Assembly (NCBI GenBank): GCA_903885635.1
Contig: CAISJE010000167.1
Location: 1-32,903, forward strand
Length of the DNA: 32,903 nucleotides
Origin: an uncultured bacterium
GTDB taxonomy: Bacteria; Cyanobacteriota; Vampirovibrionia; Gastranaerophilales; Gastranaerophilaceae
Direction of reading: 5' to 3'
This document shows positions 13,203 through 29,773 of this stretch, one piece after another (position 1 is the stretch's first letter; the number at the start of each line of letters is the position of its first letter). The translations under genes were made by a program, and so were the position numbers. The notes under the pieces were generated by a model. The model ran no database searches and had not been told where the DNA came from. It worked only from the letters and a program-made list of their open reading frames with translations.

Positions 13203-14273
13203 ATGATGACAAAAGAAAAATATTCCGATAGTGAATTTGAATCATTATTAAATAAATATGATTACAATTTCAAAAAGGGTGACCTCGTTAAGGGCATTGT
13301 TTGGTCGTATGATTCAGAGGGTGTTATCATTGATATTGGTTCAAAAACATCCGCGATTGTCCCTGTAAGAGAGGCAAAACTAGATTTTTTAGAGCCAATT
13401 GAAAAAGCATTAGAAAAAGGCAAAGAATATGAATTTCTGATTATCAAAGAAGAAGATGAGGATGGAAGATTTGTTCTCTCTCGTAAAAAAGTTGATTTAG
13501 CCTACAATTGGAAAGAATTAGAAAAAATCAAGGAAGCTGATGAAGTTATCCTTGGAACTGTTGCTTCTTGCGTTAAGGGAGGAGTTCTTGTTGATATACT
13601 TGGGATTAGAGGGTTCGTCCCGTCGAGTCATCTTCGTTGTAAAGAGTCAGAAATTAAAGTCGGTGATAAAATAGAATTAAAAATCTTAACCATAGATAGT
13701 CAACAAAATAATTTCATTTTATCAAATAAAAAAGTTTTCTCCGAGAGCGCAGAAGATATAAAAAAAACAGTGTTTTCTCAAATTGAAGTAGGGCAGGTTT
13801 TAAAAGGTGATATTGTTAGAATTGCTGATTTTGGGGCATTTATAGACATTGGCGGGGTCGATGGACTGTTGCCTCTTTCGCAAATTTCATGGAGATGGGT
13901 TGACCATCCGTCTGATATTTTAAAAGTCGGTGATAAAATAGATGTTGAAGTTATTGGAGTAGACCATGAGAAACATAGAGTTAGTTTAAGCTTGAAAAAT
14001 CTTGAGAATGATCCTTGGCTTGAGGCAGAAAAACAAATTTCTGAAGGTGAATTACGAGAAGGCACGATTACCAGAATTAAACATTTTGGGGCGTTTGTCG
14101 AAGTTTTTCCTGGGGTCGAAGCCCTTTTGCCTCACCCTGAAGTGCTTGAATATCAAAATACAAACAATTGTATCTTAAAATCAGGTGATAAAATCAATAC
14201 CACTATATTGAAATTCAATCCGACAGATAAGAGAATTGCGCTTAGCGTGAAACCACTGAATGACGCTGATTAA
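13203..14273 (+). CDS. rpsA: 30S ribosomal protein S1-like RNA-binding protein (four S1 domains)
   Basis: 356-aa RNA-binding protein that probably holds mRNA on the small ribosomal subunit. Four S1/OB-fold repeats lie at about 25-97, 112-180, 195-268 and 280-352. The third and fourth carry the classical G-x-V/I-x-x-I-x-x-FGAF(I/V) pattern and a VGDKI...RVSLSLK-type end. E. coli S1 has six domains; shorter S1 proteins with three or four are usual in Cyanobacteria and many Gram-positives. Two Met codons stand in tandem at the start; the first is well placed after GGAG. It stands alone between mutS2 and a pseudopilin gene. Naming it rpsA assumes no longer S1 exists elsewhere in the genome. Confidence 0.85.
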   Translation: MMTKEKYSDSEFESLLNKYDYNFKKGDLVKGIVWSYDSEGVIIDIGSKTSAIVPVREAKLDFLEPIEKALEKGKEYEFLIIKEEDEDGRFVLSRKKVDLAYNWKELEKIKEADEVILGTVASCVKGGVLVDILGIRGFVPSSHLRCKESEIKVGDKIELKILTIDSQQNNFILSNKKVFSESAEDIKKTVFSQIEVGQVLKGDIVRIADFGAFIDIGGVDGLLPLSQISWRWVDHPSDILKVGDKIDVEVIGVDHEKHRVSLSLKNLENDPWLEAEKQISEGELREGTITRIKHFGAFVEVFPGVEALLPHPEVLEYQNTNNCILKSGDKINTTILKFNPTDKRIALSVKPLNDAD

Positions 14274-14406
14274 GATAATATCACAGAATGGGGTTTAATT
14301 TATTGATATTTGTGGTAAAATACCAATAAGATAAGATGTAGCTTTTATTTTTTAAATAATAGGAGTTTATTTGGATTTTGGAAATAAATAAAAAGGATTT
14401 ATCATT

Positions 14407-15063
14407 ATGATTAAAAAAGGTTTTACTCTTTCAGAAATTTTAGTCAGTTTGGCTATTTTGGGCGTATTAGCAGCGTTTTTAATTCCTGCATTAATGAAAG
14501 CGGTTCCAAATAATAATATAGTTTTATTTAAAAAGGCTAATTATACTTTGCAACAAGCTGTTAGTGAAATAATTAACAATGATACAAATTATCCAATCAG
14601 TGTACTGGGGACAACAACTGACACTTTTGCATCTGTTTCAAGGGGCTTCAATTATACTACAATTACAGGGACTACTGTTCCTGCTGCGAGCAATAAATTT
14701 TGTTACCTTTTGTCTGATCAGATGAATACGGTTGGAACCGTGAGTTGTCCTGCCCCGAGTGCCGGAGGTACGGGGACTTTTATAACTGCAGATGGGGTGT
14801 CTTGGAGACTAATAATTCCTGCTCCGGCTAGTGAATTCCCTTTAAATGCAACTGATTATACAACAAGAATCGTGGTTGATGTAAACGGAACTACTAAAAG
14901 TCCTAATTGTGGGACTGTCGCAACTACTAATATATCGGATGCTTGCGCCAGCGGAACTATCGGAGATATGTATGAAATGGGCGTAAGATATGATGGTAAA
15001 TTGACAGTTATAAGTGCAGCCGGTCAAACTATTTTATTGGATCCTACAAAAAATACTCCATAA
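14407..15063 (+). CDS. Type IV pilin/pseudopilin-like protein
   Basis: 218-aa protein with a textbook prepilin start: MIKKG|FTLSEILVSLAILGVLAAFL. Prepilin peptidase should cut after Gly5, leaving N-methyl-Phe and the conserved Glu at mature position 5; the hydrophobic helix anchors it in the inner membrane. The rest is a small Thr/Ala/Gly-rich globular domain with Cys residues that could form disulphides (FCYLL, VSCPAP, SPNCG, DACAS). It ends with GDMYEMGVRYDGKL. It is probably a minor pilin or type II secretion-like pseudopilin. No assembly genes are nearby, which is common for scattered pseudopilins. AAAGGA lies upstream of the ATG. Confidence 0.85.
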   Translation: MIKKGFTLSEILVSLAILGVLAAFLIPALMKAVPNNNIVLFKKANYTLQQAVSEIINNDTNYPISVLGTTTDTFASVSRGFNYTTITGTTVPAASNKFCYLLSDQMNTVGTVSCPAPSAGGTGTFITADGVSWRLIIPAPASEFPLNATDYTTRIVVDVNGTTKSPNCGTVATTNISDACASGTIGDMYEMGVRYDGKLTVISAAGQTILLDPTKNTP

Positions 15064-15066
15064 AAG

Positions 15067-15277
15067 TATACTACACTCTAAGCCATACTAATTTTTAAAA
15101 TGCTCGAAGCTTCAGACTCAGGCGAAGCAACCCTTTCAGGCACTCTTTTCCACGTCATGCTGAACTTGATTGACTTCTTTCCTGTGAATTACGTTGGATA
15201 GATCCTGAAATACCCACCTAGGGACATTTTCTACGGCTCAATCTTTCGCCTTGAAAAGCAGTCAATTCAGGATGACG
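15067..15277 (+). repeat. Dispersed inverted-repeat element, copy A (with left extension)
   Basis: The core 15153-15277 is 125 bp, bounded by CGTCATGCTGAA... and ...TTCAGGATGACG, which are imperfect inverted repeats. The same 125-bp core recurs in reverse at 32539-32663 with five mismatches by hand alignment. About 85 bp to its left is shared with copy B near 19500. No protein is encoded. It fills the gap between the pseudopilin and glyA. Confidence 0.85.
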
Positions 15278-15403
15278 CGATGTTGGTTTTTGTTGTTGCC
15301 ACGCTTTGTCTTACCATGTCTGAACTTCAGGGTTTATCTTGCTTTAATATTCAATTATATTAACATTTCACTAACTTATTCGTTGAACCAAATATTGCTG
15401 AAA

Positions 15404-15455
15404 TTGTTAAATATTATTTTTATTCTATAATATATTATAGAGTGTAAAAAGGGGG
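15404..15455 (+). promoter_or_regulatory. glyA promoter and Shine-Dalgarno
   Basis: TTGTTA (15404-15409), a 16-base spacer and TATAAT (15426-15431), then GGGGG (15451-15455) four bases before the ATG. The region between the repeat and this promoter (15278-15403) shows nothing else. Confidence 0.55.
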
Positions 15456-15459
15456 ATAA

Positions 15460-16695
15460 ATGGAGTTAGACGTTATAAAACAAGTTGACCCGCAGGTTGC
15501 GGAATATATTGAAAAAGAACTCAAAAGACAACAAACTACGATTGAACTTATTGCGAGTGAAAACTTTACATCAAAAGCTGTCATGGCGGCATGCGGAAGT
15601 GTATTGACAAATAAGTACGCAGAGGGAAAACCTTATAAAAGATTTTATAACGGTTGCGATAACGTTGATGTTATAGAGGAATTGGCTCAAGAACGGGCAA
15701 AGAAACTTTTTAATGTCGGGCATGCCAATGTTCAGCCACATAGCGGCGCGCAGGCAAACATGGCAGTGTTTTTATATGCACTTAAAGCCGGCGATACAAT
15801 TATGGGCATGGACTTGTCGAACGGTGGGCACTTAACGCATGGTTCTCCTGTTAATTTTTCAGGAATGTATTTCAATGTGGTAAGTTACGGAGTTGATGAG
15901 AATGGGTGCATAAATTACGATGAAGTCGCAAAACTGGCTCAACAACACAAACCTAAAATGATAATTTGCGGGGCAAGTAATTATTCAAAAATAATTGATT
16001 TTAAAAGATTTAGAGAGATTGCAGACAGTATTGGAGCCTATCTAATGGCAGATATTGCTCATATTGCAGGGCTTGTAATCGGCGGAGTTCACCCATCACC
16101 TGCAGGCTATGCTCATTTTATAACAACAACAACCCATAAATCACTCAGAGGCCCTAGAGGCGGGATTATAATGTGCGAAGACGAGCATGCCGCAGGAATT
16201 GACAAAGCAGTTTTCCCGGGTGTTCAGGGCGGACCGCTTGAACACATTATTGCCGGAAAAGCTATCGCGCTTTTGGAAGCTTCAAAGCCGGAATTTAAAA
16301 CTTACGCTGAGCAAATTGTCAAAAACGCAAAGGCTCTTGCAACAGGACTTATAGACGAAGCAATGGAGATTGTGGGCGGATGCACTGAGAATCATCTAAT
16401 GACACTTGATTTGAGGAAATATAATAAAACAGGTAAAGATATAGCTAATATTTTAGAAAAAGTTGGGATTACCGCAAACAAAAATACAGTTCCAAATGAT
16501 CCTCAAAGTCCTTTCGTAACGAGTGGAATAAGGCTTGGGACACCTGCCGTAACAACAAGAGGGTTTAAAGAAGAAGATATGAACGAAGTTGCAAAAATTA
16601 TTGCATCTGCAGTATTTTCGTCAGATAATGAACTGGGATTAAAGAATTTAAAAGAACGTTCTTTTAAACTTTGCCTGAAATACCCACTTTATTAA
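15460..16695 (+). CDS. glyA: Serine hydroxymethyltransferase
   Basis: 411-aa PLP enzyme that interconverts serine + THF with glycine + 5,10-methylene-THF, feeding the same pool as FolD. Family blocks are intact: [13 protein letters not shown] (about 29-41), [26 protein letters not shown], the active-site [14 protein letters not shown] with Lys227 for PLP, the FPGVQGGP block, and [16 protein letters not shown] near the C-terminus. Most SHMTs have HKTLRGPRGG, so Ser228 is a mild variant. Length is normal. The wecA-type gene starts 12 bases after its stop and is probably co-transcribed. Confidence 0.97.
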
Positions 16696-16707
16696 AAGGG
16701 AAAAACA

Positions 16708-17742
16708 ATGATTAAATTATCGGAAGCACATATAATCGGAGCAGTAATATCCTACCTGTTAGGAGTTTTTATTGTGCCGTTGGTCATCGCTTATTCAAAG
16801 AAGCAGGGGTTGATTGATGAACCAAACGAACGAAAAATTCATAAAAAACCAATTTCAAGACTCGGTGGGGTAGCTATTTTTTCAAGTACCATGTTGACTT
16901 TTTTGTTTCTGGTTTTTTTAAGCTACTACCCTTACGGAAGTTTGCTTTCAGGCATACTGCTCGGAAGCTCATTGATGTTTTTCCTTGGGTTGGTTGACGA
17001 TATTTATACTTTAAACGCAAAATTCAAATTATTTATACAAATCGCGATTGCTACGTTGGTTTATTTGCTTGGGGTAAAAATCGATTCTATTATAAATCCT
17101 TTTGGCGGAGTTATTCAATTAGGACATTTTTCCTACTTGATAACGCTTTTATGGATAGTCGGAATCAGTAACGCCGTGAATTTTATTGACGGGATAGACG
17201 GGCTGGCTGGTTCTGTAATAACCGTGAATTCAATAACCTTGGGAATAATTGCTGTTGCAATGGTGCCGCCAAATCCGATGAGTGCGTTAATAGCATTTAT
17301 TTTAGCAGGTTCAATGTTGGCATTTTTAACCTACAATTTTAACCCTGCAAAAATATTTATGGGTGACTCAGGGGCCTTATTTGCTGGTTTTTTGCTTGCT
17401 ACTCTTTCTATTACAGGAGTTATGAAAGTGGCTACTTTGGCAATTATGCTTCCTTTCGTTGTTCTTGCGGTACCTATTATTGATATTACTTATGCATCTT
17501 TAAGAAGAATCTCCAAGGGAAAATCGCCTTTTGTTGCCGATTCTGAGCATATTCACCATAAATTACTAAAAGCCGGTTTTAGCCAAAACATGACCGTTGC
17601 CATTTTAACATCCATTGCAATTGTTGCAGGAGCCATTGCCTCTTACTTTGTCGGCTCTATTAAACATTATGTTATATATATAATTGCGCTTGTTGTTATC
17701 ATGTTTATTCTCAGCTTGATAAATCACTTGACAAAAAAATAG
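16708..17742 (+). CDS. WecA/TagO-type undecaprenyl-phosphate sugar-1-phosphate transferase
   Basis: 344-aa integral membrane enzyme that loads a sugar phosphate (probably GlcNAc-1-P) onto undecaprenyl phosphate to start a surface polysaccharide. About ten or eleven hydrophobic helices are visible. Catalytic motifs are LGLVDDIY with Asp97-Asp98, NAVNFIDGIDGLAG (about 156-168), FMGDSGALFAGF and the C-terminal HIHHKLL. These place it in the WecA/RgpG/TagO branch, not MraY. It follows glyA by 12 bases with AAAAGGG upstream of the ATG. Together with the LptF/G-type permease it points to lipid-linked surface glycans in a two-membrane cell. Confidence 0.9.
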   Translation: MIKLSEAHIIGAVISYLLGVFIVPLVIAYSKKQGLIDEPNERKIHKKPISRLGGVAIFSSTMLTFLFLVFLSYYPYGSLLSGILLGSSLMFFLGLVDDIYTLNAKFKLFIQIAIATLVYLLGVKIDSIINPFGGVIQLGHFSYLITLLWIVGISNAVNFIDGIDGLAGSVITVNSITLGIIAVAMVPPNPMSALIAFILAGSMLAFLTYNFNPAKIFMGDSGALFAGFLLATLSITGVMKVATLAIMLPFVVLAVPIIDITYASLRRISKGKSPFVADSEHIHHKLLKAGFSQNMTVAILTSIAIVAGAIASYFVGSIKHYVIYIIALVVIMFILSLINHLTKK

Positions 17743-17834
17743 ACATGTGATAAACTGGTAAAAATTTAATAAAAATTTTGAGGGTTAAAATTGAATAATT
17801 AATTGCAACTTAGTTAAGTAGAGGTTTATTAGCT

Positions 17835-18266
17835 ATGGCAGTAGAAGTAGTACAAAATAATAATTCGGGAAGAATAAGCTATACTAAAGCTGCCGCAATT
17901 GGTGCTATTGGAGGATATGCTTTAAAATGGGCAATCCCTCTTACTACCCAAGAAAAAGACAGAAGATATAATGCAACTTTAATTAAAATCAAAAACATCA
18001 ATCTCGACGAGGTAGATGTTTTTGTACGTTTACAGGATAATAAATTATCGAGCTCAAAAATTAAAGAAATAAACAAAATTTTGCTATCAGAAATCAAAAA
18101 TAGTGTTGAAACAACAAAAAAAGTTGCTGAAAAATTTCTTGTGGCATTTACAAAAAGTATTAGACCTACAAAGACATTTGTATCTGTCGGCGTTGGGTTA
18201 ACAGTTGGGGCTGCGGTTATACACAATATATTTTATCAAATTGCTAAAGACTTGCAAAAAGACTAG
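17835..18266 (+). CDS. Small two-helix membrane hypothetical protein
   Basis: 143-aa protein that I do not recognise. Two likely membrane-spanning segments lie near each end (AAAIGAIGGYALKWAIPL at about 19-36 and FVSVGVGLTVGAAVIHNIFYQI at about 115-136). They bracket a charged, helical middle, so both ends may face the same side. AGAGG (17820-17824) precedes the ATG. It is convergent with the LptF/G gene, whose stop is 14 bases away. It resembles the larger hypothetical at 22115 in layout (N- and C-terminal hydrophobic helices around a Lys-rich core), but I see no clear sequence match. Confidence 0.6.
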   Translation: MAVEVVQNNNSGRISYTKAAAIGAIGGYALKWAIPLTTQEKDRRYNATLIKIKNINLDEVDVFVRLQDNKLSSSKIKEINKILLSEIKNSVETTKKVAEKFLVAFTKSIRPTKTFVSVGVGLTVGAAVIHNIFYQIAKDLQKD

Positions 18267-18280
18267 AAAATCAGATGTAA

Positions 18281-19387
18281 TTAATTAATTGTGTAAACTT
18301 TTCTATAATATAAAACAGTACCCGTTATCAAAAGTAAAATATTAGCCATCCAAGCCGCAAGAAACGGCGACAAGGAACCTGCTTCTCCAAAGGAAATAGA
18401 CAGTGCCCTTATCAAATAATAAGTGAATATTATTAATATACTAAACAAGAAACCCCTGTTATATCTGACTCTTGGTGGAGTGATTGCCAGTGGAACCCCA
18501 ACCAAGACCAAAACAATGGTAGTCAGCGGTAAGGCTATTTTATCGTACAACGAAACCAGATAAAGATTTCTTTGTTCCGAAATTTTATCGGGATGTTGCC
18601 TTATATAATTTAACAATGAAGCAAAATTATGTTCCTTGGCGACATTTTGTTTTAGTTCATTTGACAAATCAATTCCGAACTGGGCAACAGAATTTTCAAA
18701 GAAAGTTGTATTAAGAATTTCGCCCTCTTGGGCAACTGTATAAATGGCACCTCTGTTAAATTGCCAACCTGCAGGCGACGTTGAACCGTCTTGAGCTTGA
18801 AGTACCTGAATTGTATCGGGCTTTGACAAATCCAAAACCGTAATATTATGCAAAACCTTGTTTTTGCAGTGTCCAACATAAAACAACCGCTTCAGCGTTC
18901 CGTTGTTTTGCAACTCCTTGAAAATAAAATTTTGTTTTCCTTCGGGAATATTTTTCTGTCCCAATGCCCATAATGCTAAGTCTTTAGACTGTTTTGTGGT
19001 AATCGGAACAATTGTTTCATTAATAAAAAAACTGGCGATAGACATTATCAACGCAAAGATAAATATTGGTTTGGCAATTCTGTTTAAACCGATTCCGCAA
19101 GAGCGCATGACTGTAATTTCAGACGCCAAGCTTAATCTATTCAATGTCATTACCGTTGCCAATAAAACCCCCATTGGTATTGTCATTACAAAAACGGATG
19201 GTAAATTCAAAATAATTATCATTAATGCCACTTTGAAAGGAATTCCGTAAAGTGCAATCTGTCTTATCAAGGTAATAAAGGTATCCGAAGCGAAAATTAT
19301 GGAAGTGAAAACAAAAACACCCATAATAAACATTTCAATGACCTGCCTTAAAATATATCTGTCTAATATCGTCATTTTTTTAAGCAT
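18281..19387 (-). CDS. LptF/LptG (YjgP/YjgQ) family LPS-export permease
   Basis: 368-aa inner-membrane permease. LptF and LptG form the membrane part of the ABC transporter that moves LPS from the inner membrane toward the outer membrane. TILDRYILRQVIEMF is the usual start of the family, followed by three N-terminal helices, the MRSCGIGLNRI coupling region, a periplasmic beta-jellyroll-like middle (about 140-270) and three C-terminal helices ending in YYRKVY. Only one member is present here; many diderms with simple genomes have a single fused-role copy or a distant partner. Start choice: ATG at 19387 follows a TAGAAT -10-like box by 6 bases with no SD, suggesting leaderless initiation; Met5 is the alternative. 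Confidence 0.88.
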   Translation of the reverse strand: MLKKMTILDRYILRQVIEMFIMGVFVFTSIIFASDTFITLIRQIALYGIPFKVALMIIILNLPSVFVMTIPMGVLLATVMTLNRLSLASEITVMRSCGIGLNRIAKPIFIFALIMSIASFFINETIVPITTKQSKDLALWALGQKNIPEGKQNFIFKELQNNGTLKRLFYVGHCKNKVLHNITVLDLSKPDTIQVLQAQDGSTSPAGWQFNRGAIYTVAQEGEILNTTFFENSVAQFGIDLSNELKQNVAKEHNFASLLNYIRQHPDKISEQRNLYLVSLYDKIALPLTTIVLVLVGVPLAITPPRVRYNRGFLFSILIIFTYYLIRALSISFGEAGSLSPFLAAWMANILLLITGTVLYYRKVYTIN

Positions 19388-19461
19388 AAGACTATTCTAT
19401 ATGAAAAATAACTCAAAGCCAAGAATTATTTTAAAAATGGTTCTTACTAAAAAATCCATAA

Positions 19462-19565
19462 AATACACTCATTACTTAATTTTCAAGATGCTTGAAGCTT
19501 CAAATCCATGCGGAGCAATACCTTTCAGGCACCCTTTCCCATGTCATCCTGAATTGACTACTTTT
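19462..19565 (+). repeat. Dispersed element, copy B (rearranged)
   Basis: The left ~80 bp aligns with the left extension of copy A (GCTTGAAGCTTC..., CCTTTCAGGCACYCTTT...). It runs into TGTCATCCTGAATTGACT (19542-19559), which matches the opposite terminal repeat of the element. It is therefore a flank of one end joined to the terminus of the other, with the 125-bp core lost or inverted. It supplies the stop codon of the YkgJ-type gene. Confidence 0.7.
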
Positions 19566-19954
19566 CCCAAAATCTCAGAAAAAGAAATAATCGGAATCAT
19601 TTTATATCCGCAATCTTTTGTTAACTCGCCGCCCATAATAAAAAGCTCTTCCTGAGGGTATCTACGACAAATGCTCGGACGATGTTTATGGATTTTGCAC
19701 AAGTTAGTTGTTTCATCCAAATTTGAACAGGAGAAGACCAAGCCCGTTTCGTCCTTGTCCACAACGGTTAAATAAGTATAAAATCGGTGCAAAAATTTTA
19801 GTTTTTCGAACTCTTTTTCCTCTTGAATCACATGCCTGCTTGTTTTTACATATATTTTTTTGCAACATTTTCCACAACCAAGACAATTACCCATTCTATA
19901 ATATTTTCTTCTCAAAATTTTTACATGTATGTATTTTTTTATTGTTTTAAGCAT
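19544..19954 (-). CDS. YkgJ-type CxxCxxCC metal-cluster protein
   Basis: 136-aa cytosolic protein of the zinc/iron-chelating CxxCxxCC family. NCLGCGKCCK (about residues 23-32) is the signature. SCSNLDETTNLCKIHKHRPSICRRYP carries the later conserved Cys and the HRPxxCRxYP motif. The family is thought to bind an Fe-S cluster or zinc; its substrate is not known. The ATG overlaps the stop of the upstream TPR gene by 8 bases (ATGCTTAA), so it is translationally coupled to it. The last five residues (VVNSG) and the TGA come from repeat copy B, so the original C-terminus was probably different. Confidence 0.8.
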   Translation of the reverse strand: MLKTIKKYIHVKILRRKYYRMGNCLGCGKCCKKIYVKTSRHVIQEEKEFEKLKFLHRFYTYLTVVDKDETGLVFSCSNLDETTNLCKIHKHRPSICRRYPQEELFIMGGELTKDCGYKMIPIISFSEILGKVVNSG

Positions 19955-21194
19955 TTAACCCGGCTTCCGCCTTTTCACATTGAGAATATTTAGCTTTCGC
20001 CTTTGAAAATTCGAGATATCGTGGTGCCGATAATTTCATTATTCTGAAAAAATAAGCTTTTGCTTCAAAAAATGCACCCTCGTTCATTAGTTTGTTTCCT
20101 ATTTCAAAACAGTTGGAAATAATACTCAATTCGGGGGTTAGATAAGATTCTAATTTTTCAATAATATCTTTATATAACTGCTTTTCTTGAGGGTTTAAAA
20201 TGGCATAATTTTTAAATTCGTCTATTGCCTCATTATATTCACTTTTTGCGATATGTTCTTGTGCCAAATCGAGGTGTTTAGAAATTAATTCGGGATGTTC
20301 ATTCAAGAATGGTTTTATTTTCAACAACCGTTTATTTACTTTGTAATATTCTTCTTTGTCGCTAATAATATAGTTCATGTATCGATAGTAATAACAATAC
20401 GCATAATCAAATTCTTTCATTAAGTCGTATGAAATAGCTAAATTTGAATATAATTTATCATAATTGGGGTCAAGATGAGAGGCTGTTTTCCAATATTTGA
20501 TTGCAAGTTCTAAATTCTTATCTGAAAAAAATATACTGCCCAAATTAAGGTTCGTTTTGGACAAATTCGGATAATTTGCGAGCGATTTAAAATAGCAAGC
20601 GGCAGCCTTTTTATCCTGATTCTCGGTCTGAAATTGTACGCCAAGAGTTAAATACTCTTGGGCAACGTTAAAACAATGCTGAATTTTATTTCTAATTTGA
20701 ATATATTTTTCCGAAGATTTTTCTTCCGCATATTTAATGTATTTTTCAAAATATTTAATTGATTCAAATCTCATCATTTTTTGATTAAAAGCAATAGCCA
20801 GATTAAGCGAAGTATTGGCATCTTCCGGCCTTGAGATAAGCGCAACCAGCCAATATGATATCGCCAGTTCAACATGCCCGTTCTTAAAATACAAATTACC
20901 TATATTAGCATATGGTTTGAAATTTTTTGGGTCCAAACTAATAGCCTTGTTCCAATAATCAAGTGCTTCTTGGGGATTATTTAACATATAATAACAGCTT
21001 CCGATATCCACATAAAGATCCGAATCGACACTGTTATGCATTGAACTTAATAGAAGATTTAATGCTTCTCTGTAGTTTCCCTTTGCATATTGCCTAAGAG
21101 CTACAGATACTGTATCGCCTTGAATATCTTCATTATTAGCTTGATGCACTGATATATTTTTTTTTTCTTCTTCTGCCATGTTTTTCTCTATCAC
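19947..21194 (-). CDS. Cytosolic TPR-repeat protein
   Basis: About 410-415 aa built almost wholly of tetratricopeptide repeats. Roughly eight to nine units are visible, such as SDLYVDIGSCYYMLNNPQEALDYW, KPYANIGNLYFKNGHVELAI and KLYSNLAISYDLMKEFDYAY. There is no signal peptide or membrane helix, so a cytosolic protein-binding scaffold is likely. The longest frame starts with GTG (21194). ATG at 21179 (MAEEEKKN) has TAGAGAA just upstream and is equally likely. It sits between a 114-aa hypothetical (20 bases upstream) and the YkgJ-type gene (8-base overlap), so the three are probably one operon. The partner is unknown. Confidence 0.85.
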   Translation of the reverse strand: MIEKNMAEEEKKNISVHQANNEDIQGDTVSVALRQYAKGNYREALNLLLSSMHNSVDSDLYVDIGSCYYMLNNPQEALDYWNKAISLDPKNFKPYANIGNLYFKNGHVELAISYWLVALISRPEDANTSLNLAIAFNQKMMRFESIKYFEKYIKYAEEKSSEKYIQIRNKIQHCFNVAQEYLTLGVQFQTENQDKKAAACYFKSLANYPNLSKTNLNLGSIFFSDKNLELAIKYWKTASHLDPNYDKLYSNLAISYDLMKEFDYAYCYYYRYMNYIISDKEEYYKVNKRLLKIKPFLNEHPELISKHLDLAQEHIAKSEYNEAIDEFKNYAILNPQEKQLYKDIIEKLESYLTPELSIISNCFEIGNKLMNEGAFFEAKAYFFRIMKLSAPRYLEFSKAKAKYSQCEKAEAGLNA

Positions 21195-21213
21195 ATTCCA
21201 TAATTACGTAAAA

Positions 21214-21558
21214 TTATAAAGATAAATCGTTTAATAATTTTTGATTGTTGGATAACGCACTAATTGATTCATTTGAAAATAGATCTGAAACGCCCTTCTC
21301 AAATAGGTTAGCAATTATTTGTGCATGTGACAAATCTTCCGGATTCGACATTGCAAGAGCACTAAACTGTTTGACATCCTGTTCTTTTTGATAAAGATTG
21401 ACCGCTTCATTAGAAATAGCCGTTTCATCAATCAAAAGAGTTCTGTCAATTTTTTCATATGGATTTTTTATAGGATTGGTTACAATACCATTAACCCCAA
21501 TTTGATTTTTTAATTGGGCGTTATTTAGTTCATCACCAAGATTAACTCCATTTAACAT
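21214..21558 (-). CDS. Hypothetical protein, first gene of the TPR/YkgJ operon
   Basis: 114-aa protein that I do not recognise. It is hydrophilic, with an Asn/Leu-rich N-terminus and a helical middle (ETAISNEAVNLYQKEQDVKQFSAL). The helix faintly recalls the 'IS-x-EA-x-x-LY' helix of small flagellar/anti-sigma-type proteins; that is only a resemblance. There is no signal peptide, membrane segment or Cys. GGGG lies 6 bases or so before the ATG, supporting expression. It leads a minus-strand set with the TPR protein and the CxxCxxCC protein. Confidence 0.6.
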   Translation of the reverse strand: MLNGVNLGDELNNAQLKNQIGVNGIVTNPIKNPYEKIDRTLLIDETAISNEAVNLYQKEQDVKQFSALAMSNPEDLSHAQIIANLFEKGVSDLFSNESISALSNNQKLLNDLSL

Positions 21559-21718
21559 ATTTCCCCAGTCGAATATTCTTCATTCACATGTATATTATGC
21601 AATATTTCAGGCATAATGATATCAACTACTCGGTCTAAATTTATAGACCACCTGATTAATATTATAAACTTATTTTTGAAAAATTCAAGTAATGCCCCTC
21701 AAGTACATTAAAATGGTA
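21559..21718. other. Intergenic control region between divergent transcripts
   Basis: No gene is seen. It holds two inverted repeats: ATTATGC/GCATAAT around 21595-21618, and GGTCTA (21632-21637) with TAGACC (21644-21649). Either could be an operator for the minus-strand TPR operon or the plus-strand small-ORF transcript. Confidence 0.4.
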
Positions 21719-21746
21719 TTGACAGCAAAAATTTATGTTGTATACT
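21719..21746 (+). promoter_or_regulatory. Strong sigma-70-like promoter of the small-ORF transcript
   Basis: Perfect -35 TTGACA (21719-21724), a 16-base spacer and TATACT (21741-21746). Predicted transcription start is about 21753. A terminator at 21881-21909 would give an RNA of about 155 nt. Confidence 0.7.
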
Positions 21747-21774
21747 CAAAGAGTATCAAAAAAAGGAAAAATTG

Positions 21775-21834
21775 ATGTTAGTAAGAAACTTATTACGACG
21801 TACACGAGGATTTATAAGAAAGGACTTGTTTTAA
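21775..21834 (+). CDS. Tiny basic peptide ORF 1 (19 aa)
   Basis: ATG at 21775 with AAAGGAAA upstream encodes MLVRNLLRRTRGFIRKDLF, then TAA. Seven of 19 residues are Arg or Lys, in an amphipathic pattern. It has its own near-consensus promoter and a terminator about 50 bases downstream, so it is likely expressed as a very short mRNA or a dual-function small RNA. Its start resembles that of the second tiny ORF at 21987 (M-[LI]-x-NL-RR). No known leader peptide or toxin is recognised; too short to place by family. Confidence 0.5.
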   Translation: MLVRNLLRRTRGFIRKDLF

Positions 21835-21880
21835 CAGCCCAAAGTTTTTTACTGAAATTTTGAAATAATTAATGAAAACA

Positions 21881-21909
21881 AGACCTTTTAAACAAAAGAG
21901 GTCTTTTTT
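21881..21909 (+). terminator. Intrinsic terminator of the small-ORF transcript
   Basis: AGACCT (21881-21886) pairs with AGGTCT (21899-21904), extended by T/A pairs with one bulged G, and followed by TTTTTT. Confidence 0.75.
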
Positions 21910-21986
21910 GTTACGAAATATAAAAAAAACGGAAAAAAATAGCATTATTTTTTTTCAGAGTACTTAAAAAAGTAAAGGAATGCAAA

Positions 21987-22070
21987 ATGATAAAAAATCT
22001 TCGACGAAAATCAATCATAAAGGCGAATGCTCCCATCGTCAAATTAATGAATTTAGCTTGGGGCTTGTGA
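21987..22070 (+). CDS. Tiny basic peptide ORF 2 (27 aa)
   Basis: ATG at 21987, preceded by AAAGGAA, encodes a 27-aa peptide. It starts MIKNLRRKSIIK and ends in a hydrophobic stretch VKLMNLAWGL. The start resembles the 19-aa ORF 1 about 210 bases upstream. It lies beyond the ORF 1 terminator, so it needs its own promoter or read-through; none is obvious (an AT-rich TATAAA lies near 21918). It precedes the 437-aa membrane protein gene by 44 bases and could be a leader peptide for it. Confidence 0.4.
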   Translation: MIKNLRRKSIIKANAPIVKLMNLAWGL

Positions 22071-22114
22071 TTTAGATTGTAATAAGCATAAAGAATGCTT
22101 TTAAAAGGAAAGAA

Positions 22115-23428
22115 ATGATTGACCCGATAACAACAGCAAAAATATTTTCGAGCTTAGGAAACAGCAGCTCACTTTTCCCGATTGCGGTGAAAGACGCCGC
22201 GCATATTGCCGGAATGACAACTGCATCTTACATTACAGGAAAAGAAATAGAAGGAAAAGACAGACTTATAGATGAGGTTGGAAGCACAGCCATGTGGATT
22301 GGCGGCATTCCGTTTTACAAAAAAGTAATCGATTTGACTCTCTATAAATTAGCAAAATATAGCCCCAACGTGGATGTTAGAATTTTAAAGGATGAAAATA
22401 TCTTAAAAAAAGCTATTCAGCACGCCCCGACAAAAGAAATACAAGAAAATATTAAAAAAGCGGCAGGTAACGTCAAGATGGCGAAAGGGTTAAATCTCGC
22501 AAAATTTCTTACTGCTACAGCTTTAACACTGATTTCTTATTCGTCACTAACAACTTTTAGGCATAAACACACCGAAAAAAGCATTATCAAAGAAATCCAT
22601 AAAGAAGAAGCAGAAAAGAAACTAAAAGAAGAATATTTCAAGGGGAAAATGTCTCCTGCCTTTAAGTCGATAAAATCAGATACTAAAAATCAGAACCCGA
22701 GTTTTGGTATGAATTTACACGCGCTTCAGGATTTTATGTTCAATCCGGTTAAAAATATGCAGATTGTTGATGCCGGAATCACTGCATCAAGATTCAGCGA
22801 ATCAAGAAACCCTCAGGACTTTATGGGTTATGTTATAAAGGAAGGCAGTTTCTGGACGTTCATGTATTTTGCAGTCGATAAAATTCAAGAACATTTTGAA
22901 AAAAAATCTGAACAAAAATACAACAAATCTATTGATTTGGATATCAGAGCAATTCAGTCAAATGAAGTAAAAAAGGGATTTAAAAAAGGTACAATCATTG
23001 CAAGTGTTGAAGAATTTAACAAACTCAAAACACCTGAGGATATATATGAATTTTTATGCACAAAGGGGGATAATCTAGTTGTTAAAATGGCTAAAGAATC
23101 AGGGATTATAAAGTTGCATGAAAACACAGATAAAATTGATACTCAGCATTATATTGACTTGGATAAAGTCAAAAAGGTCGGGATAAAATTAGAAAAATTA
23201 TACAAACAATATTCAACTTCAGGCGAAGAAATAGAAGCATTTTTAGGTAAAACCATTAAGCTCAAAAGAGGTTCTGTGTTAAAAAATATAGGCGTTTGCA
23301 TGGGCGTTTTGGGGCTTGTTGTTCCAGGGCTAATTCTTGCCATGAGATTTATGAACAAGGACAATAAGGACTTTATGGTGAAAAAAGAAATTCATAAAAA
23401 ATTAAAACAGGGTAATGTTGTGGCTTGA
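22115..23428 (+). CDS. Lineage-type membrane hypothetical protein
   Basis: 437-aa protein that I do not recognise. It has no signal peptide. Hydrophobic segments lie at about 130-150 (AKFLTATALTLISYSSLTTF) and near the C-terminus at about 393-413 (IGVCMGVLGLVVPGLILAMRF). An N-terminal part is Gly/Ala-rich. Between the helices is a Lys/Glu-rich, largely helical region of about 240 residues. AAAGGAAAG (22105-22113) abuts the ATG and supports the start. It may belong to a family limited to this bacterial group. The higB promoter begins within 30 bases of its stop, so the two are probably separate transcripts. Confidence 0.65.
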   Translation: MIDPITTAKIFSSLGNSSSLFPIAVKDAAHIAGMTTASYITGKEIEGKDRLIDEVGSTAMWIGGIPFYKKVIDLTLYKLAKYSPNVDVRILKDENILKKAIQHAPTKEIQENIKKAAGNVKMAKGLNLAKFLTATALTLISYSSLTTFRHKHTEKSIIKEIHKEEAEKKLKEEYFKGKMSPAFKSIKSDTKNQNPSFGMNLHALQDFMFNPVKNMQIVDAGITASRFSESRNPQDFMGYVIKEGSFWTFMYFAVDKIQEHFEKKSEQKYNKSIDLDIRAIQSNEVKKGFKKGTIIASVEEFNKLKTPEDIYEFLCTKGDNLVVKMAKESGIIKLHENTDKIDTQHYIDLDKVKKVGIKLEKLYKQYSTSGEEIEAFLGKTIKLKRGSVLKNIGVCMGVLGLVVPGLILAMRFMNKDNKDFMVKKEIHKKLKQGNVVA

Positions 23429-23455
23429 TACTTTTTTCATCAGCAAAGAAGAGGC

Positions 23456-23484
23456 TTGACACCTGTAACGTTATAGGTTATAAT
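23456..23484 (+). promoter_or_regulatory. Consensus promoter of higBA
   Basis: TTGACA (23456-23461), exactly 17 bases, TATAAT (23479-23484). This is a perfect sigma-70 promoter. The predicted start site (about 23491) is 3 bases before the higB ATG at 23494, with no Shine-Dalgarno. Confidence 0.85.
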
Positions 23485-23493
23485 AAAAACAAC

Positions 23494-23772
23494 ATGATAA
23501 AATCTTTTAAACATAAAGGTCTTGAATTTTTTTTTAAAACAGCAACTACAAAAGGTATTAACCCTGAACATCAAAAAAAGCTTAGACGTATTCTTGCAAT
23601 TTTAGATGAAATAACTGATATATCTGAAATTAATTTTAACAGTACTTATCTCCATCAGCTCAAAGGTGATTTGCAGGGATTATGGTCAATGAGGGTTAAT
23701 GGAAATTGGCGGATAACATTTGAACTTAAAGAAGAAAATGTTTATATTGTAGATTATCAAGATTATCACTGA
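23494..23772 (+). CDS. higB: HigB-type (RelE superfamily) toxin
   Basis: 92-aa predicted ribosome-dependent mRNA interferase of the HigB/RelE fold. Typical features are the start MIKSFKHKGLEFFF, the helix HQKKLRRILAILDEI, the strand LHQLKGDLQGLWSMRV and the end GNWRITFEL...VYIVDYQDYH, with the usual basic and C-terminal His/Tyr residues. I place the start at 23494: an in-frame start at 23425 lies upstream of the promoter and would add 23 unrelated residues. higA follows 12 bases downstream. As in other HigBA systems the toxin gene comes first, which needs strong antitoxin translation (higA has a good SD while higB has none). Confidence 0.9.
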   Translation: MIKSFKHKGLEFFFKTATTKGINPEHQKKLRRILAILDEITDISEINFNSTYLHQLKGDLQGLWSMRVNGNWRITFELKEENVYIVDYQDYH

Positions 23773-23784
23773 AAGGAAAAATTT

Positions 23785-24084
23785 ATGGAAATGTTTAATC
23801 CCCCTCATCCGGGTGAAATTTTATTAGAAGAATATATTAGACCTTTAGAGTTGAGTGTTTCTAGTTTTGCATTGAAGATTGGAACAAGTCGTAAAAATTT
23901 GTCTAAAATTGTCAATGAAAAGGTTGGCATAAGCCCTGAAATGGCTTTGAAATTGGCAAAAGCTCTCGGAACTTCGCCTGAAATATGGCTTAGGCTGCAA
24001 TTGAAATATGATTTATGGCAAGCAAAGCAACGTACAAACTTTGATTATATTGAAGCTATTTGCCCCAAAAAGGAGATTGCTTGA
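23785..24084 (+). CDS. higA: HigA-type antitoxin (XRE helix-turn-helix)
   Basis: 99-aa DNA-binding antitoxin. MFNPPHPGEILLEEYIRPL is the standard HigA start, followed by an HTH (VSSFALKIGTSRKNLSKIVNEKVGISPEMALKLAKAL) and the tail WLRLQLKYDLWQAKQ. It should neutralise HigB and repress their shared promoter. GAAAGGAAA lies upstream of the ATG. It ends 21 bases before ubiE, whose -10 box lies in the gap. Confidence 0.93.
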   Translation: MEMFNPPHPGEILLEEYIRPLELSVSSFALKIGTSRKNLSKIVNEKVGISPEMALKLAKALGTSPEIWLRLQLKYDLWQAKQRTNFDYIEAICPKKEIA

Positions 24085-24093
24085 TTTTTTGGT

Positions 24094-24099
24094 TATAAT
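24094..24099 (+). promoter_or_regulatory. -10 box directly before ubiE/menG
   Basis: Perfect TATAAT ending 6 bases before the ATG. No Shine-Dalgarno and no convincing -35 at the right distance. ubiE may be read from this site as a leaderless mRNA, or co-transcribed from the higBA promoter. Confidence 0.45.
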
Positions 24100-24105
24100 A
24101 TATTT

Positions 24106-24792
24106 ATGGAAAAATGTTCTAAAACTCCGCAAAGAATAAAAAAAATGTTTAACCAAATAGCAAACAATTACGACAAATTGAATACTATTATGACTTTTGG
24201 GTTGCATAAACGTATAAAAAAAGATGTGATAAAACATTTAAACCTTAACAATGATGCTGAAATTCTTGATTTATGCACAGGAACAGGCGATTTGGCGGGG
24301 ATTTTAAAGAAAAAATATCCATACGCAAAAATTATAGGTGTTGATTTTTCGCAAGAGATGCTTAAAGTTGCGAGAAATAAATACCCTGAAATTGAGTTTT
24401 TGGATGCAGATTGTACACAATTACCGTTTAAAAATGAACAATTAGACTTGTGTATAATTTCTTTTGGGCTTAGAAACACGGAAGATATTAAAAAAATGTT
24501 GAGTGAAATTTACAGGGTTTTGAAAAAAGGAGGAACTTTTATTAACCTTGACCTTGGCAAACCAAATAAATTTTTAAATATTTTTTTTAAACCGTACATG
24601 TATTTATGGGTAGCTTTTTTAGGCAAAATTTTCCATGGTGATGAAACACCTTACAAATATCTTGCTGTTTCAAACGAAGATTTTCCTTCTCAATATCGAC
24701 TCGTAGAAATGTTTAAGGAAATTGGATTTTCTGATGTAAAGAATAAAAATTATTTATTTGGGCAAATCGCTTCACAAATTTCTAAAAAATAA
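24106..24792 (+). CDS. ubiE: UbiE/MenG quinone C-methyltransferase
   Basis: 228-aa SAM-dependent methyltransferase catalysing the C-methylation of demethylmenaquinone (and, in ubiquinone makers, the ubiquinone precursor). UbiE/COQ5 family marks: FNQIANNYDKLNTIMTFGLH..., SAM loop LDLCTGTGDLAG (about 54-65), GVDFSQEMLKVAR, ISFGLRNTEDIKKMLSEIYRVLKKGG and the C-terminal GQIASQISKK. An anaerobic gut organism would more likely use it for menaquinone, so menG is an equally good name. It is not with other quinone genes here. It sits directly after higBA. Confidence 0.92.
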   Translation: MEKCSKTPQRIKKMFNQIANNYDKLNTIMTFGLHKRIKKDVIKHLNLNNDAEILDLCTGTGDLAGILKKKYPYAKIIGVDFSQEMLKVARNKYPEIEFLDADCTQLPFKNEQLDLCIISFGLRNTEDIKKMLSEIYRVLKKGGTFINLDLGKPNKFLNIFFKPYMYLWVAFLGKIFHGDETPYKYLAVSNEDFPSQYRLVEMFKEIGFSDVKNKNYLFGQIASQISKK

Positions 24793-24939
24793 TTATTCTG
24801 TAAATAAAAGAATAGCGGTCGTAACTACTCAGGGAAAAAACGAACAAATTACATATCTTGAAAAGCTTGTTTAAGCAAGATTGCTTCATTCCCTCCTGTG
24901 TCTTAACTTTTACACCTGCTTAGCGATTTTGTTCATGTT

Positions 24940-25974
24940 TTAATAAATTTTAATTATCTTGCGAACTTCTTTTAATGTTTTTTGCGCTTCTACACGTGCT
25001 TTGTTGGTGCCTGCTTCAATAATCTGTTCAATTTCTTCAATATGATTTTCATAATAGTGCCTTTTTTCTCGAATGGGCGCCAATCTTTCGTTTATAACGG
25101 TTCCAAGCTGTCTTTTACAATCAGCGCAACCACGTTCGCCTTTTTTACATTCCGATTCTACAATTTTAATTGTATCAGAATCGCCAAAAATCTGCCAATA
25201 TTTGAAAGCAACCTCACAATTGTCGGGATGACCCAAATCATCTCTGCGAATTCGGCTCGGATCAGTTATCGCCTGCATAATTTTCTTTGCGGTCGTTTGT
25301 TCATCATCTGAAATCTTTATATCGTTATTAAGCGATTTTCCCATCTTGTTTCCGTCCAAGCCACATAAAAGCGGAACTTGTGTGAGTTTTGGAACAGGTT
25401 CGTTGAAAAACTCTGTTTGATAAATATGATTAAATCTTCTCGCTATATCTCTTGTAATCTCTAAATGCGCAACTTGGTCTTTTCCAACGGGTACGATAGA
25501 GGCGTTAAAGGTCATTATATCGGCACTCATTAAAACAGGGTAGCCCATTAATCCGTAGCTGATTTGAGAATTTGTACCCTCTTTGGTTTTTAAAATTTTT
25601 ACCATATCTTTTAATGTAGGGTCGCGTTCAACCCAATTTTGAGGTGTAACCATGCCTAAATATATGTTAAGCTCAGCCGTTTCAGGAATAAGCGATTGAA
25701 CATAGATTGTCGAACGATTAGGGTCAATTCCGCAAGAAACCCAATCCAAGACAACTTCCAAGGTATTTTGGCGTAAATCCTCCGTCTTGTCATACTTTGT
25801 GGTTAATGCATGCCAATCTGCAACGAAAAAATAGCAATCGTATTCGTTTTGCAACTTAACCCAGTTTTCGATTACCCCGAGATAATGCCCTAAATGCAAT
25901 TTCCCCGTAGGACGCATCCCTGATACAATTTTCTTTTTCTTCGTTTCAATATTGTTAGCCACAATTACTCCCAT
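24940..25974 (-). CDS. trpS: Tryptophanyl-tRNA synthetase
   Basis: Class I aminoacyl-tRNA synthetase that charges tRNA-Trp; about 340 aa, the normal length. The HIGH-type motif is TGKLHLGHY (about 23-31) and the KMSKS-type motif is NKMGKSLNND. GMRPTG, FVADWHALTT, SYGLMGYPVLMSADIM and GKDQVAHLEITRDIARRFN are typical of bacterial TrpRS. C-x(6)-C-x-x-C (CKKGERGCADC) is a possible metal site, seen in a subset of TrpRS. There are two start options: ATG 25974, placed 5 bases after TATAAA and without SD, or GTG 25962 (VANNIETK...), which has GGGAG 5 bases upstream. Confidence 0.95.
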   Translation of the reverse strand: MGVIVANNIETKKKKIVSGMRPTGKLHLGHYLGVIENWVKLQNEYDCYFFVADWHALTTKYDKTEDLRQNTLEVVLDWVSCGIDPNRSTIYVQSLIPETAELNIYLGMVTPQNWVERDPTLKDMVKILKTKEGTNSQISYGLMGYPVLMSADIMTFNASIVPVGKDQVAHLEITRDIARRFNHIYQTEFFNEPVPKLTQVPLLCGLDGNKMGKSLNNDIKISDDEQTTAKKIMQAITDPSRIRRDDLGHPDNCEVAFKYWQIFGDSDTIKIVESECKKGERGCADCKRQLGTVINERLAPIREKRHYYENHIEEIEQIIEAGTNKARVEAQKTLKEVRKIIKIY

Positions 25975-26025
25975 TTTTATTTATATACTCTGCATGAAAA
26001 TTTTAACATGAAAATTCAAAAAGAG

Positions 26026-26928
26026 TTATTTGGCAGCATTTGCGTATATTTCCAGACCATTTGTAAAATCAAGGACTTTTTCTAAGCACCAATCCACGTT
26101 CCAATGACTTCCAATTTCTGAAAGATATAATTGCGCCATTGGATTTTGCCTTGCAAGTTCAATTGAATTTTGACATGGGGCAATTTCATCAGTTTTTGAA
26201 TGTAAAATCAAAATCGGACATTTAATATTTTTTATTTTATTTATATTGTCGAATTTCTGGATAAAATGTATACTTTCTATATGTTTTTTTATAAAAAGGG
26301 CGACTATGTTTAAATTTAGCTTTCGACAATAAAAATTATACACATCTATTGCAGCCGATTTTATTTCTTTGATTGGTGATTGTAAAATTATTCCCATAAC
26401 ATTATTGTGAATAGCTGTCTCAATAGCAACACTTGTTCCAAGCGAATGTCCCCATAGAATTATTTTATCTTCATCAACACCCAGTTTTTTAAGTTGTGTA
26501 ATCGCGGATTGAGCATCTGTATAAATACCTTTTTCACAAGCTTTTCCACCACTTTTGTAATGTCCGCGATAAGAGAGCATAAATAATCCAAATCCTTTTT
26601 CCATGCAATAAAGCGCGACATCCTGATGGCTTAAAATAGATTCGGCTTGTCCGTGAAAATGCAACATAACCGGCATATTCTTTTTAGGTTTTATAAACCA
26701 TGCATAAAGCTTAATCCCATTTGAATTAATAAATCGTTGAGGTTTAATTTTTTTTAACAACCCTCTTTTGATTCTTTTTGCCCTAAGTTTTGATGGCTGA
26801 AAAATCAAATAATTTTCAATATTTTCTCTGATTTTAGCAAAACCACGCCCCTCCCTTTCAAGCAAGGGATAGATAGACAGTAAAATTAATTTTTTCAGAA
26901 TAAAAAAATAACTTTCGCACCTATGCAT
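26026..26928 (-). CDS. Alpha/beta hydrolase (ABHD13/BEM46-like)
   Basis: 300-aa predicted serine hydrolase. HFHGQAES (oxyanion region), SYRGHYKSGGK, the nucleophile elbow GHSLGTS, the acid loop HSKTDEIAP and the catalytic His in GSHWN make a complete Ser-Asp-His triad. This arrangement is typical of the BEM46/ABHD13-type lipase/esterase group; the substrate is unknown. The N-terminus is doubtful: the ATG at 26928 overlaps a perfect TATAAT (26932-26927). The codons after it include CCCTTGCTTGAAAGGGAGGGG, read as PLLEREGRG, which looks like intergenic repeat DNA. The true protein may begin further in, before NYLIFQPSKL. Confidence 0.8.
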   Translation of the reverse strand: MHRCESYFFILKKLILLSIYPLLEREGRGFAKIRENIENYLIFQPSKLRAKRIKRGLLKKIKPQRFINSNGIKLYAWFIKPKKNMPVMLHFHGQAESILSHQDVALYCMEKGFGLFMLSYRGHYKSGGKACEKGIYTDAQSAITQLKKLGVDEDKIILWGHSLGTSVAIETAIHNNVMGIILQSPIKEIKSAAIDVYNFYCRKLNLNIVALFIKKHIESIHFIQKFDNINKIKNIKCPILILHSKTDEIAPCQNSIELARQNPMAQLYLSEIGSHWNVDWCLEKVLDFTNGLEIYANAAK

Positions 26929-26971
26929 TATAACATATTTTTTGTGAAATGATATCCCCCCACTTGATTTT

Positions 26972-28345
26972 CTAATTGCTTAAATATTTCTCAATTCCCT
27001 TGACAATGGCTTTAGCGCAATTTGACTGAAAATCGTTATCAAGCAAAAGTGCGTAATCATCAGGATTAATAATATACGCTACTTCAATCAAAACACTTAC
27101 ATTCGAAGTTGAACGAACAAGCGCCAAGCTTCCCTGTCTTACTTTATCGTTTTGAGTATTGAGCTGTGTCGTCATCTCGTTTAAAATGTTCTCCGCCAAA
27201 TATTTTGCCTGATTGTGATAATAATAAACGCTTGTCCCCCTGTTTTTATTGGGGTCTGCACCATCAGGTAAAGCATTTGCATGTAGGCTTATAAGTATTG
27301 CGGCATCTTTATCCCTTGCAAGCTTAACCCTGTCAGCAAGCGAAACATCGATATCATCTCCTCTTGTCATTACAACCCTTGCACCACTTTTTTTAAGCTC
27401 CTCTTGAAGTTTTTTTGCAATCGCAAGATTAATATCTTTTTCTTTGTCTCCACAACAACCTATCGCTCCGAACTCAGAACCTCCATGCCCTGCATCTATT
27501 GCGATTATTATATCAGTGAGCGGTTTTTCCGCATTGAGTTGTTGAGGTTTACGGATTTTTAAAACGAATTTAGTCCCCTCATAATAAGCTTCGTAACCCA
27601 TCAGTTTTTGAATAGGGAAATTTAAGGTTAACGTGTTGTCTTCAACATTAAATTTCTCATCCGCTTTTATATTGAAAAGTTGTAGAGTTAAGCCGTTTTC
27701 TTCCTTGACAACAAAAGGTACTTTCTTTAGCAAATCAATTTCATAAAGGCAAAAATCCTTTTTTTCGTGTATGTTGAAATCTATAATTGTCGCCGGCAGT
27801 AAGTCGATTTCTTCCGGTTTTTTTTGTTCTACATTCGATTTTGCAACCCAACCGTTTAATTTTGAATTAAGATAAACCCTGTAAAAACCCCCGTTTTCGC
27901 CGTTTATTAAAAGTTGTATATCTTTCGACAAATGCGACATTCGATTAATCCCGCCATCTACGGGCGTCATTCTAAGTGGTGCATTATCTGTCATTACGAA
28001 AAAATTGTTCATTATTGGATATTTAATTAAAGTTGAGGAAATCGGACTTGAAATCGTAGGTTTCGGGCGTTCAATCGTAAAATTTATCGTTTTTTCACCT
28101 GAACTAATAACAAAATTGTTAATCCCGATTTCCAAAGGCACAACTTGGGCAAATGCACCCAAGGGCGAAAGTTTCACCTCTGTATCATTAACTTTTAGAA
28201 TATCATTCGGATTTGTCGAGCCGATAAAAAATGTCGAATTGGCGCTAATTTTAGCAGGATTAGTCTTAGGATAAACAATCTCAAGTGCCTCACCTTTTAA
28301 GACAAACGCAAAAAACACAAAAATCAATAATAAAGTTTTTATCAT
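26972..28345 (-). CDS. Secreted N-acetylmuramoyl-L-alanine amidase (AmiC type) with SH3-like domain
   Basis: 457-aa zinc hydrolase that cleaves the bond between N-acetylmuramic acid and the stem peptide, usually for cell separation. The signal peptide is MIKTLLLIFVFFAFVLKGEA. Residues 25-110 are a beta-rich region, about 115-170 an SH3b-like segment (LRMTP...INGENGGFYRVYL..GWVAKSNV), and the Amidase_3 domain lies at about 277-455. That domain has DAGHGGSE (Zn His), EKDINL (Zn Glu), SLHAN (Zn His) and the catalytic Glu in LIEVAYIINPDDY. An unusual CCGD follows GAIG. The start has no SD; TAAAAT ends 6 bases upstream (leaderless candidate). The upstream DUF378 terminator overlaps its promoter region. 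Confidence 0.92.
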   Translation of the reverse strand: MIKTLLLIFVFFAFVLKGEALEIVYPKTNPAKISANSTFFIGSTNPNDILKVNDTEVKLSPLGAFAQVVPLEIGINNFVISSGEKTINFTIERPKPTISSPISSTLIKYPIMNNFFVMTDNAPLRMTPVDGGINRMSHLSKDIQLLINGENGGFYRVYLNSKLNGWVAKSNVEQKKPEEIDLLPATIIDFNIHEKKDFCLYEIDLLKKVPFVVKEENGLTLQLFNIKADEKFNVEDNTLTLNFPIQKLMGYEAYYEGTKFVLKIRKPQQLNAEKPLTDIIIAIDAGHGGSEFGAIGCCGDKEKDINLAIAKKLQEELKKSGARVVMTRGDDIDVSLADRVKLARDKDAAILISLHANALPDGADPNKNRGTSVYYYHNQAKYLAENILNEMTTQLNTQNDKVRQGSLALVRSTSNVSVLIEVAYIINPDDYALLLDNDFQSNCAKAIVKGIEKYLSN

Positions 28346-28360
28346 AAAAAAATTTTATCA

Positions 28361-28390
28361 TAAAAAATGATGGGACGAAGCCCATCATTT
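28361..28390 (-). terminator. Intrinsic terminator of the DUF378 gene
   Basis: AAATGATGGG and CCCATCATTT form a perfect 10-bp stem with a 6-base loop, leading into a T-run on the minus strand. It lies just upstream of the amidase -10-like box, so DUF378 and amidase transcripts are probably separate. Confidence 0.85.
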
Positions 28391-28396
28391 AAAAAT

Positions 28397-28585: not shown

Positions 28586-28639
28586 AATATTTCTCCTTTT
28601 TTACCTCTCTTATTATTCCCGAATTACTATCTTTTTTCA

Positions 28640-28670
28640 TTGCAAAAAAGAAGTAATCTGAAAGTATAAT
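28640..28670 (+). promoter_or_regulatory. Candidate promoter of the barrel-like protein
   Basis: TTGCAA (28640-28645) and TATAAT (28665-28670) with a 19-base spacer. The -10 is convincing and the -35 is weak. Confidence 0.45.
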
Positions 28671-29430: not shown

Positions 29431-29436
29431 AACTTT

Positions 29437-29772: not shown

Positions 29773-29773
29773 T

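Follow-up and report, generated by a model that had tools for sequence, protein, structure and literature searches.

The 125-bp block that occurs twice, in opposite orientations, in a 32,903-nt stretch of DNA from an uncultured member of the Gastranaerophilaceae (the window, taken as that whole stretch) is the interior of a gene-less MITE of ~290-350 bp with GGTTC...GAACC ends. With a probability of about 0.87, this MITE is a non-autonomous member of the ISL3 group, carrying a pair of CGTC-REP hairpins as a passenger that gained a tip insert later, and its copies lie at rearrangement junctions.

Copies of the 125-bp block

Direct alignment confirmed the two inverted blocks described in the initial annotation: the block of copy 1 and the reverse complement of that of copy 2 are both 125 nt long, with exactly 5 mismatches between them (at 15183, 15196, 15198, 15216 and 15218). 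Similarity between the two copies extends to 156 bp (15131-15286 and 32530-32685, with 8/156 positions different), and the BLAST match between them has E = 1e-62 and is therefore not due to chance. A flank of ~33 bases had been described as common to both copies; a flank is indeed shared, but its two sides measure 22 nt and 9 nt. As had been stated, both copies are without protein-coding sequence.

The block also proved to be a non-coding, transposition-derived repeat dispersed through the source genome (G000; 2.28 Mb, 233 contigs). A 151-bp query gave 19 matches there, of which six have both ends of the core, three break off inside it and the remainder are pieces, and the resulting nine core copies have 89-97% identity. 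They are accompanied in the window by a third partial copy that had previously been overlooked (Table 1). The high identity of the two window copies had been ascribed to recent spread or gene conversion; with a divergence of 4% between these copies, 3-11% among the others and 2-8% between congeneric genomes, the spread is recent only in a relative sense.

The block has a strong predicted fold (-34 to -37 kcal/mol) and two copies lie directly past genes, which would suit a regulatory RNA or terminator maintained for its function and copied by gene conversion. This is the least probable of the alternatives considered, as an Rfam search of the window gave no match, truncated and flipped copies exist, and the orthologous junctions of the congener carry no copy.

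Table 1. Repeat features of the window and its segments collinear with the congeneric genome G001.
Feature	Position	Strand	Remarks
Collinear segment	13600-15100		G001 C29
Copy 1, MITE left-arm remnant	15089-15152	+	outer ~50 bp gone; 15089-15100 also present in congener host sequence, the exact junction falling among these bases
Copy 1, 125-bp block (CGTC-REP pair)	15153-15277	+	CGTC ends outward, insert at right-unit tip; compare G000:C146:423-499
Left CGTC-REP unit	15153-15182	+	degenerate (TTCAGCATC -> TGACTTC)
Right CGTC-REP unit	15201-15277	-	long-loop form, stem arms GATCCTGAA ... TTCAGGATGACG
Tip insert, 51 nt	15213-15263	-	constant ends TTGACTGCTTTT / AAAATGTCCCtATGCGGG, mutated in copy 1
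Copy 1, MITE right arm	15278-15389	+	right end GAACC at 15385-15389
Collinear segment	15390-19440		G001 C18 (98%)
Third partial copy	19439-19566	+	intact left end GGTTC, left arm, ~27 bp of core start
Collinear segment	19567-24797		other part of G001 C29
Collinear segment	24934-32529		G001 C32
Further ISL3-type terminal sequence GGTTCTTGCGAAAAATCCATAAAATTC	30017-30043	+	outside copies 1-3
Copy 2, MITE right-arm remnant, 9 bp	32530-32538	-	3 bp past the stop of ORF 31805-32527
Copy 2, 125-bp block	32539-32663	-	
Copy 2, MITE left-arm remnant	32664-32694	-	followed by other intergenic repeats to the contig end

Boundaries and insertion sites of the mobile unit

A longer query gave 37 matches, in which many fragments end at two common outer points, GGTTCTTGCGAAAAATCCATGAAATACACTCATTACTTAATTTTCAAGATGC on the left (as an end motif, GGTTCTTGCG) and AATATTCAATTATATTAACATTTCACTAACTTATYCGTTGAACC, ending in GAACC, on the right. 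A complete copy of 290 bp is present at G000:C146:322-611. Since pieces stop at these outer points, and all nine cores, whether full or truncated, retain arm sequence past at least one core end, CGTCAT...ATGACG is an internal boundary. The CGTCAT-S-CTGAA inverted termini previously assigned to the block are present and belong to two REP-like hairpins, but similarity runs beyond both of them and the terminus of the element lies elsewhere, so that the mobile unit is the whole MITE and not the 125 bp initially proposed.

None of the window copies has both terminal inverted repeats, copy 1 being without the left end, copy 2 without either and the third copy without the right; intact copies are located elsewhere in the source genome (C146 and C72). 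Copy 1 is a left-truncated MITE, whose right end adjoins host sequence collinear with G001:C18:31563, and copy 2 is a core fragment.

Target-site duplications, proposed earlier as a check on mobility, are exact and 9 bp long in seven whole elements with GGTTC/GAACC ends: one in the source genome (C72, CATTAGTTT), five in the congener (ATTTCATGT, GCATAGAGT, AAGATAAAA, ATGTTAATG and TAATTGAAA) and one in a genome of another genus of the same family (G012:C170, TTATCATAT). Two IS insertions in G012 have further 9-bp duplications (TTTTAAATA and GTCTTTAAT, deduced from paired contig ends), two elements have duplications of 8 bp, and the C146 MITE carrying the REP pair has one that matches at 7/9 positions. 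An empty site, which had also been suggested as a check, is found by comparison with the congener: the MITE at G001:C21, which bears half a core and the tip insert, is missing at the orthologous G000:C203, where the unoccupied site reads CATAACCGATTGGCTGTTGTTGGG against an expected pre-insertion sequence of CATAACCGATTTCATGTTGTTGGG. C203 also has a repeat, CCAATCGGTTATGCTTTGATTGC, which is an unoccupied, paralogous form of the C146 target; it stands in for an orthologous empty site, since the left flank of C146 consists of repeats as far as the contig start.

Other repeats are associated with these elements. At G001:C21, a separate 350-bp element with an apparent 8-bp duplication is inserted directly beside the ISL3-type MITE; this ~350-bp MITE, with ends TAAAGATTTAGCAC...GTGCTAAATCTTTA, is present both there (L061) and at G000:C18:1984-2333 (L181). 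In both genomes, a single place of the MITE right arm holds nested GTAG-type palindromes (GTAGGTCGGGCATTCCTGCCCGAC; GTAGGGTGCGGATTTAACCGCACC; L061, L063, L067, L024 and L025), and repeats of a similar type border a Y1 transposase gene in the congener (C15:146433).

An ISL3-family insertion sequence as candidate mobiliser

A transposase with matching ends, the remaining check proposed for the block, is provided by a multi-copy ISL3 IS in G012, in which the copies are collapsed at many contig ends and no full-length ISL3 element was recovered. The ends of this IS are GGTTCTTGCGAAAAATCCATGAAGTGTTAATATAATTAATC on the left and TATATTTCACGAATTTGTCTGTTGAACC on the right, with the ISL3 transposase C-terminus (PF01610) just inside the right end, and the MITE is identical to them at 24/28 positions on the left and 22/30 on the right. 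G012 also contains a 115-bp internally deleted IS derivative. Only decayed remnants of ISL3 were found in the source genome (C229, C172 and C160). The sole near-complete ISL3 locus (168 bits) is in G031, with the coding region split over two ORFs, and confirms the assignment to the ISL3 family.

The element resembles ISL3-family MITEs in being non-coding and multi-copy, in its IS-like ends and constant-length duplications, and in that a relative has an internally deleted derivative of the IS. It differs from them in its interior, which is a REP pair and not IS-derived, and in the measured duplication of 9 bp, as ISL3 elements are listed with 8-bp target duplications. No paper describing ISL3 MITEs of this kind in the order Gastranaerophilales was found in the open-access library searched.

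Besides the lack of a full-length IS from G012, the split coding region in G031 and the 9-bp duplications, three observations count against the ISL3 MITE account: a different repeat at one gene-order break (24798-24933), the many CGTC-REPs of relatives outside MITEs, and the differing relative orientations of core and arms at C128, C186, C84 and 19439, for which simple transposition gives no explanation. At the last of these orientations, the third window copy, the core piece (its first ~27 bp) is in the opposite orientation and truncated at 19566. A simple in-place flip of the core was ruled out for C128 and C186, both of which have left-arm sequence on both sides.

The CGTC-REP pair inside the unit

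Two hairpins of the form CGTC-ATNCTGAA-loop-TTCAGN'AT-CT, with CGTC facing outward, make up the core. Exact matches to this pattern number 67 in G020, 34 in G012, 19 in G004 and 4 in the source genome, against 0 for a reversed control pattern, and, apart from six, the matches listed all have G:C, C:G or T:A as the free pair N:N'. Hairpins with the CGTC tag, an 8-9-bp stem starting AT and a 4-5-nt loop occur in C146 and in relatives, while the window copies have a degenerate left hairpin and an enlarged right loop. Examples of outward (HH) pairs, given here without regard to frequency, are C146 423/499, G012 C11 1169/1244 and C199 30519/30594.

These hairpins share with CGTC-tagged REPs the unpaired CGTC, the 8-bp stem starting AT, the loop of about 5 nt, the outward (HH) pairs with a short spacer and the absence of a linked tyrosine transposase (PMC3733652). 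The CGTC-REP super-family is found in several phyla and was reported to be unassociated with transposase genes and to lack a dedicated transposase (Di Nocera et al. 2013, PMC3733652). The pair described here departs from that pattern in lying inside a DDE-type MITE, with a 51-nt tip insert in one unit (compare PMC3733652). It also does not conform to GTAG-REP/RAYT systems, the tag being CGTC and the genome having no PF01797.

CGTC-REP pairs are plentiful outside MITEs in relatives, and a 76-bp REP pair in G012 is identical in design to that of C146, both of which would be expected if the 125-bp block were a self-mobile REP pair, moved by a tyrosine (Y1/RAYT) transposase and found in MITE arms merely through repeated insertion. 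Such an origin is unlikely, given that Y1 transposase (PF01797, Y1_Tnp) was detected neither in the source genome nor in the 67-hairpin genome G020, that none of 19 Y1 loci in relatives has a CGTCAT.CTGAA hairpin within 1.5 kb, and that every full core adjoins MITE arm sequence at one end or both. A RAYT/IS200 mobiliser was rejected on the same two grounds of the missing PF01797 and the relatives' Y1 loci.

The passenger reading, in which the pair travels inside the ISL3-type MITE, is illustrated by G012, where three contig ends carry almost the same MITE right end, REP terminus included, which suggests fairly recent copying together with the passenger. Together, the nested REP pair, the target duplications and these near-identical ends point to one way in which CGTC-REPs can be copied by a DDE transposon. 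In relatives, the majority of CGTC-REPs are located outside MITEs, indicating that ISL3 is not their general carrier. In G020, neither Y1 nor ISL3 transposase was detected alongside its numerous hairpins.

The tip insert

The right hairpin of C146 is uninterrupted (CCTGAAATAAATTCAGG) and has no tip insert, while the nine 125-bp copies have 51 nt between GAAATA and AATTC. The insert is solitary in C212 and G001:C10 and is present at CGTC-REP tips in other genomes. An exact pattern of its inner sequence gave no match in genome_contigs; a gapped pattern built from the constant ends (TTGACTGCTTTT + AAAATGTCCCNATG) gave 25 stretches in the same collection, each of them from Ca. Gastranaerophilales or an unnamed bin. 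The flanks form co-varying CGTC-REP stems at 24 of these places, pairing at 5.2/6 positions where none of 2000 shuffles exceeded 4.7, which makes the insert a test case for hairpin tips as insertion targets.

Three prepilin leaders of G027 (L072, L073 and L074; ...GLTAFQGESDSSRRKCPMRARKRKA-FTLAE) contain the tip-insert module in frame, upstream of the KAFTLAE motif. In-frame modules within genes recall the Rickettsia palindromic elements, of which RPE-6 and RPE-4 are included in the CGTC-1/CGTC-4 REPs (PMC3733652); the module differs from these in sequence and host, and its in-frame copies are found solely in cleavable leaders. A broader proposal, that DDE-type MITEs are the regular vehicle spreading transposase-less CGTC-REPs in Gastranaerophilales and that the tip insert, as a second-order parasite, specialises in CGTC-REP hairpin tips and can also join prepilin leader peptides, is speculative and on balance doubtful.

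The nearest known kinds of element are MITEs and CGTC-REPs, and the novelty lies in the nesting of a REP pair in a MITE. TIMEs and other mosaic non-autonomous transposons (PMC4133298) are similarly non-autonomous and mosaic in content, but TIMEs belong to the Tn3 family and not to ISL3.

Gene order and rearrangement

Comparison of gene order between positions 13600-32903 of the window and the congener (Table 1) placed two breaks exactly at copy 1 and at the third partial copy. A further break, at 24798-24933, holds a different repeat, and copy 2 begins after the last collinear base, 32529. No copy of the MITE/REP repeat family is present at the corresponding places of the congener. It had been proposed that recombination between the two inverted copies would invert the intervening 17 kb; a simple inversion of this kind was rejected, as none is seen relative to the congener, in which the intervening segments lie on three different contigs. 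Rearrangement through inter-repeat recombination or faulty transposition is plausible, and the overlap with gene-order breaks links repeat nests to genome rearrangement in this uncultured gut lineage.

The assembly is in 233 contigs, copy 2 lies only 240 bp from a contig end and the breaks coincide with repeats, all of which would suit one locus duplicated during assembly, or breaks that are short-read misjoins at repeats. An artefact of this kind is unlikely: the copies differ at 5/125 positions and are truncated differently in their flanks, copy 1 matches the other compared copies exactly over 68 bp at most, and near 15100 the left junction connects unrelated sequence and not two repeat copies.

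For the ISL3-type MITE, the following history is likely. An ISL3-type DDE transposase acting in trans would recognise GGTTCTTnCGAAAAnTCCATGAA-like ends, as the matching ends of MITE and IS suggest, and would insert the entire unit with duplication of 9 bp of target, consistent with the observed duplications and unoccupied sites. The outward-headed CGTC-REP pair would be copied along in the middle of the MITE as a passenger; the two co-occur, and the direction and timing of capture are deduced from presence and absence in the copies. One hairpin would later have gained the ~51-nt tip insert, copies being found with and without it. The MITE copies are now truncated and flipped and sit at rearrangement junctions, probably through inter-repeat recombination or failed transposition.

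Several further features of the window adjoin these repeats. An ORF at 19544-19954 (-) ends within the third repeat copy, giving it a C-terminus unlike that of its counterpart in the congener. At 29437-30118 (-), two small ORFs resemble a putative hicB/hicA toxin-antitoxin pair, which is missing at the collinear G001:C32:152340-152368 and is adjoined by the ISL3-type end at 30017-30043. The contig end (32686-32903) is a run of other palindromic intergenic repeats (CTCGCAATGACG and GTCGACTTGTCGAC), which are also present on other contigs, such as C88.
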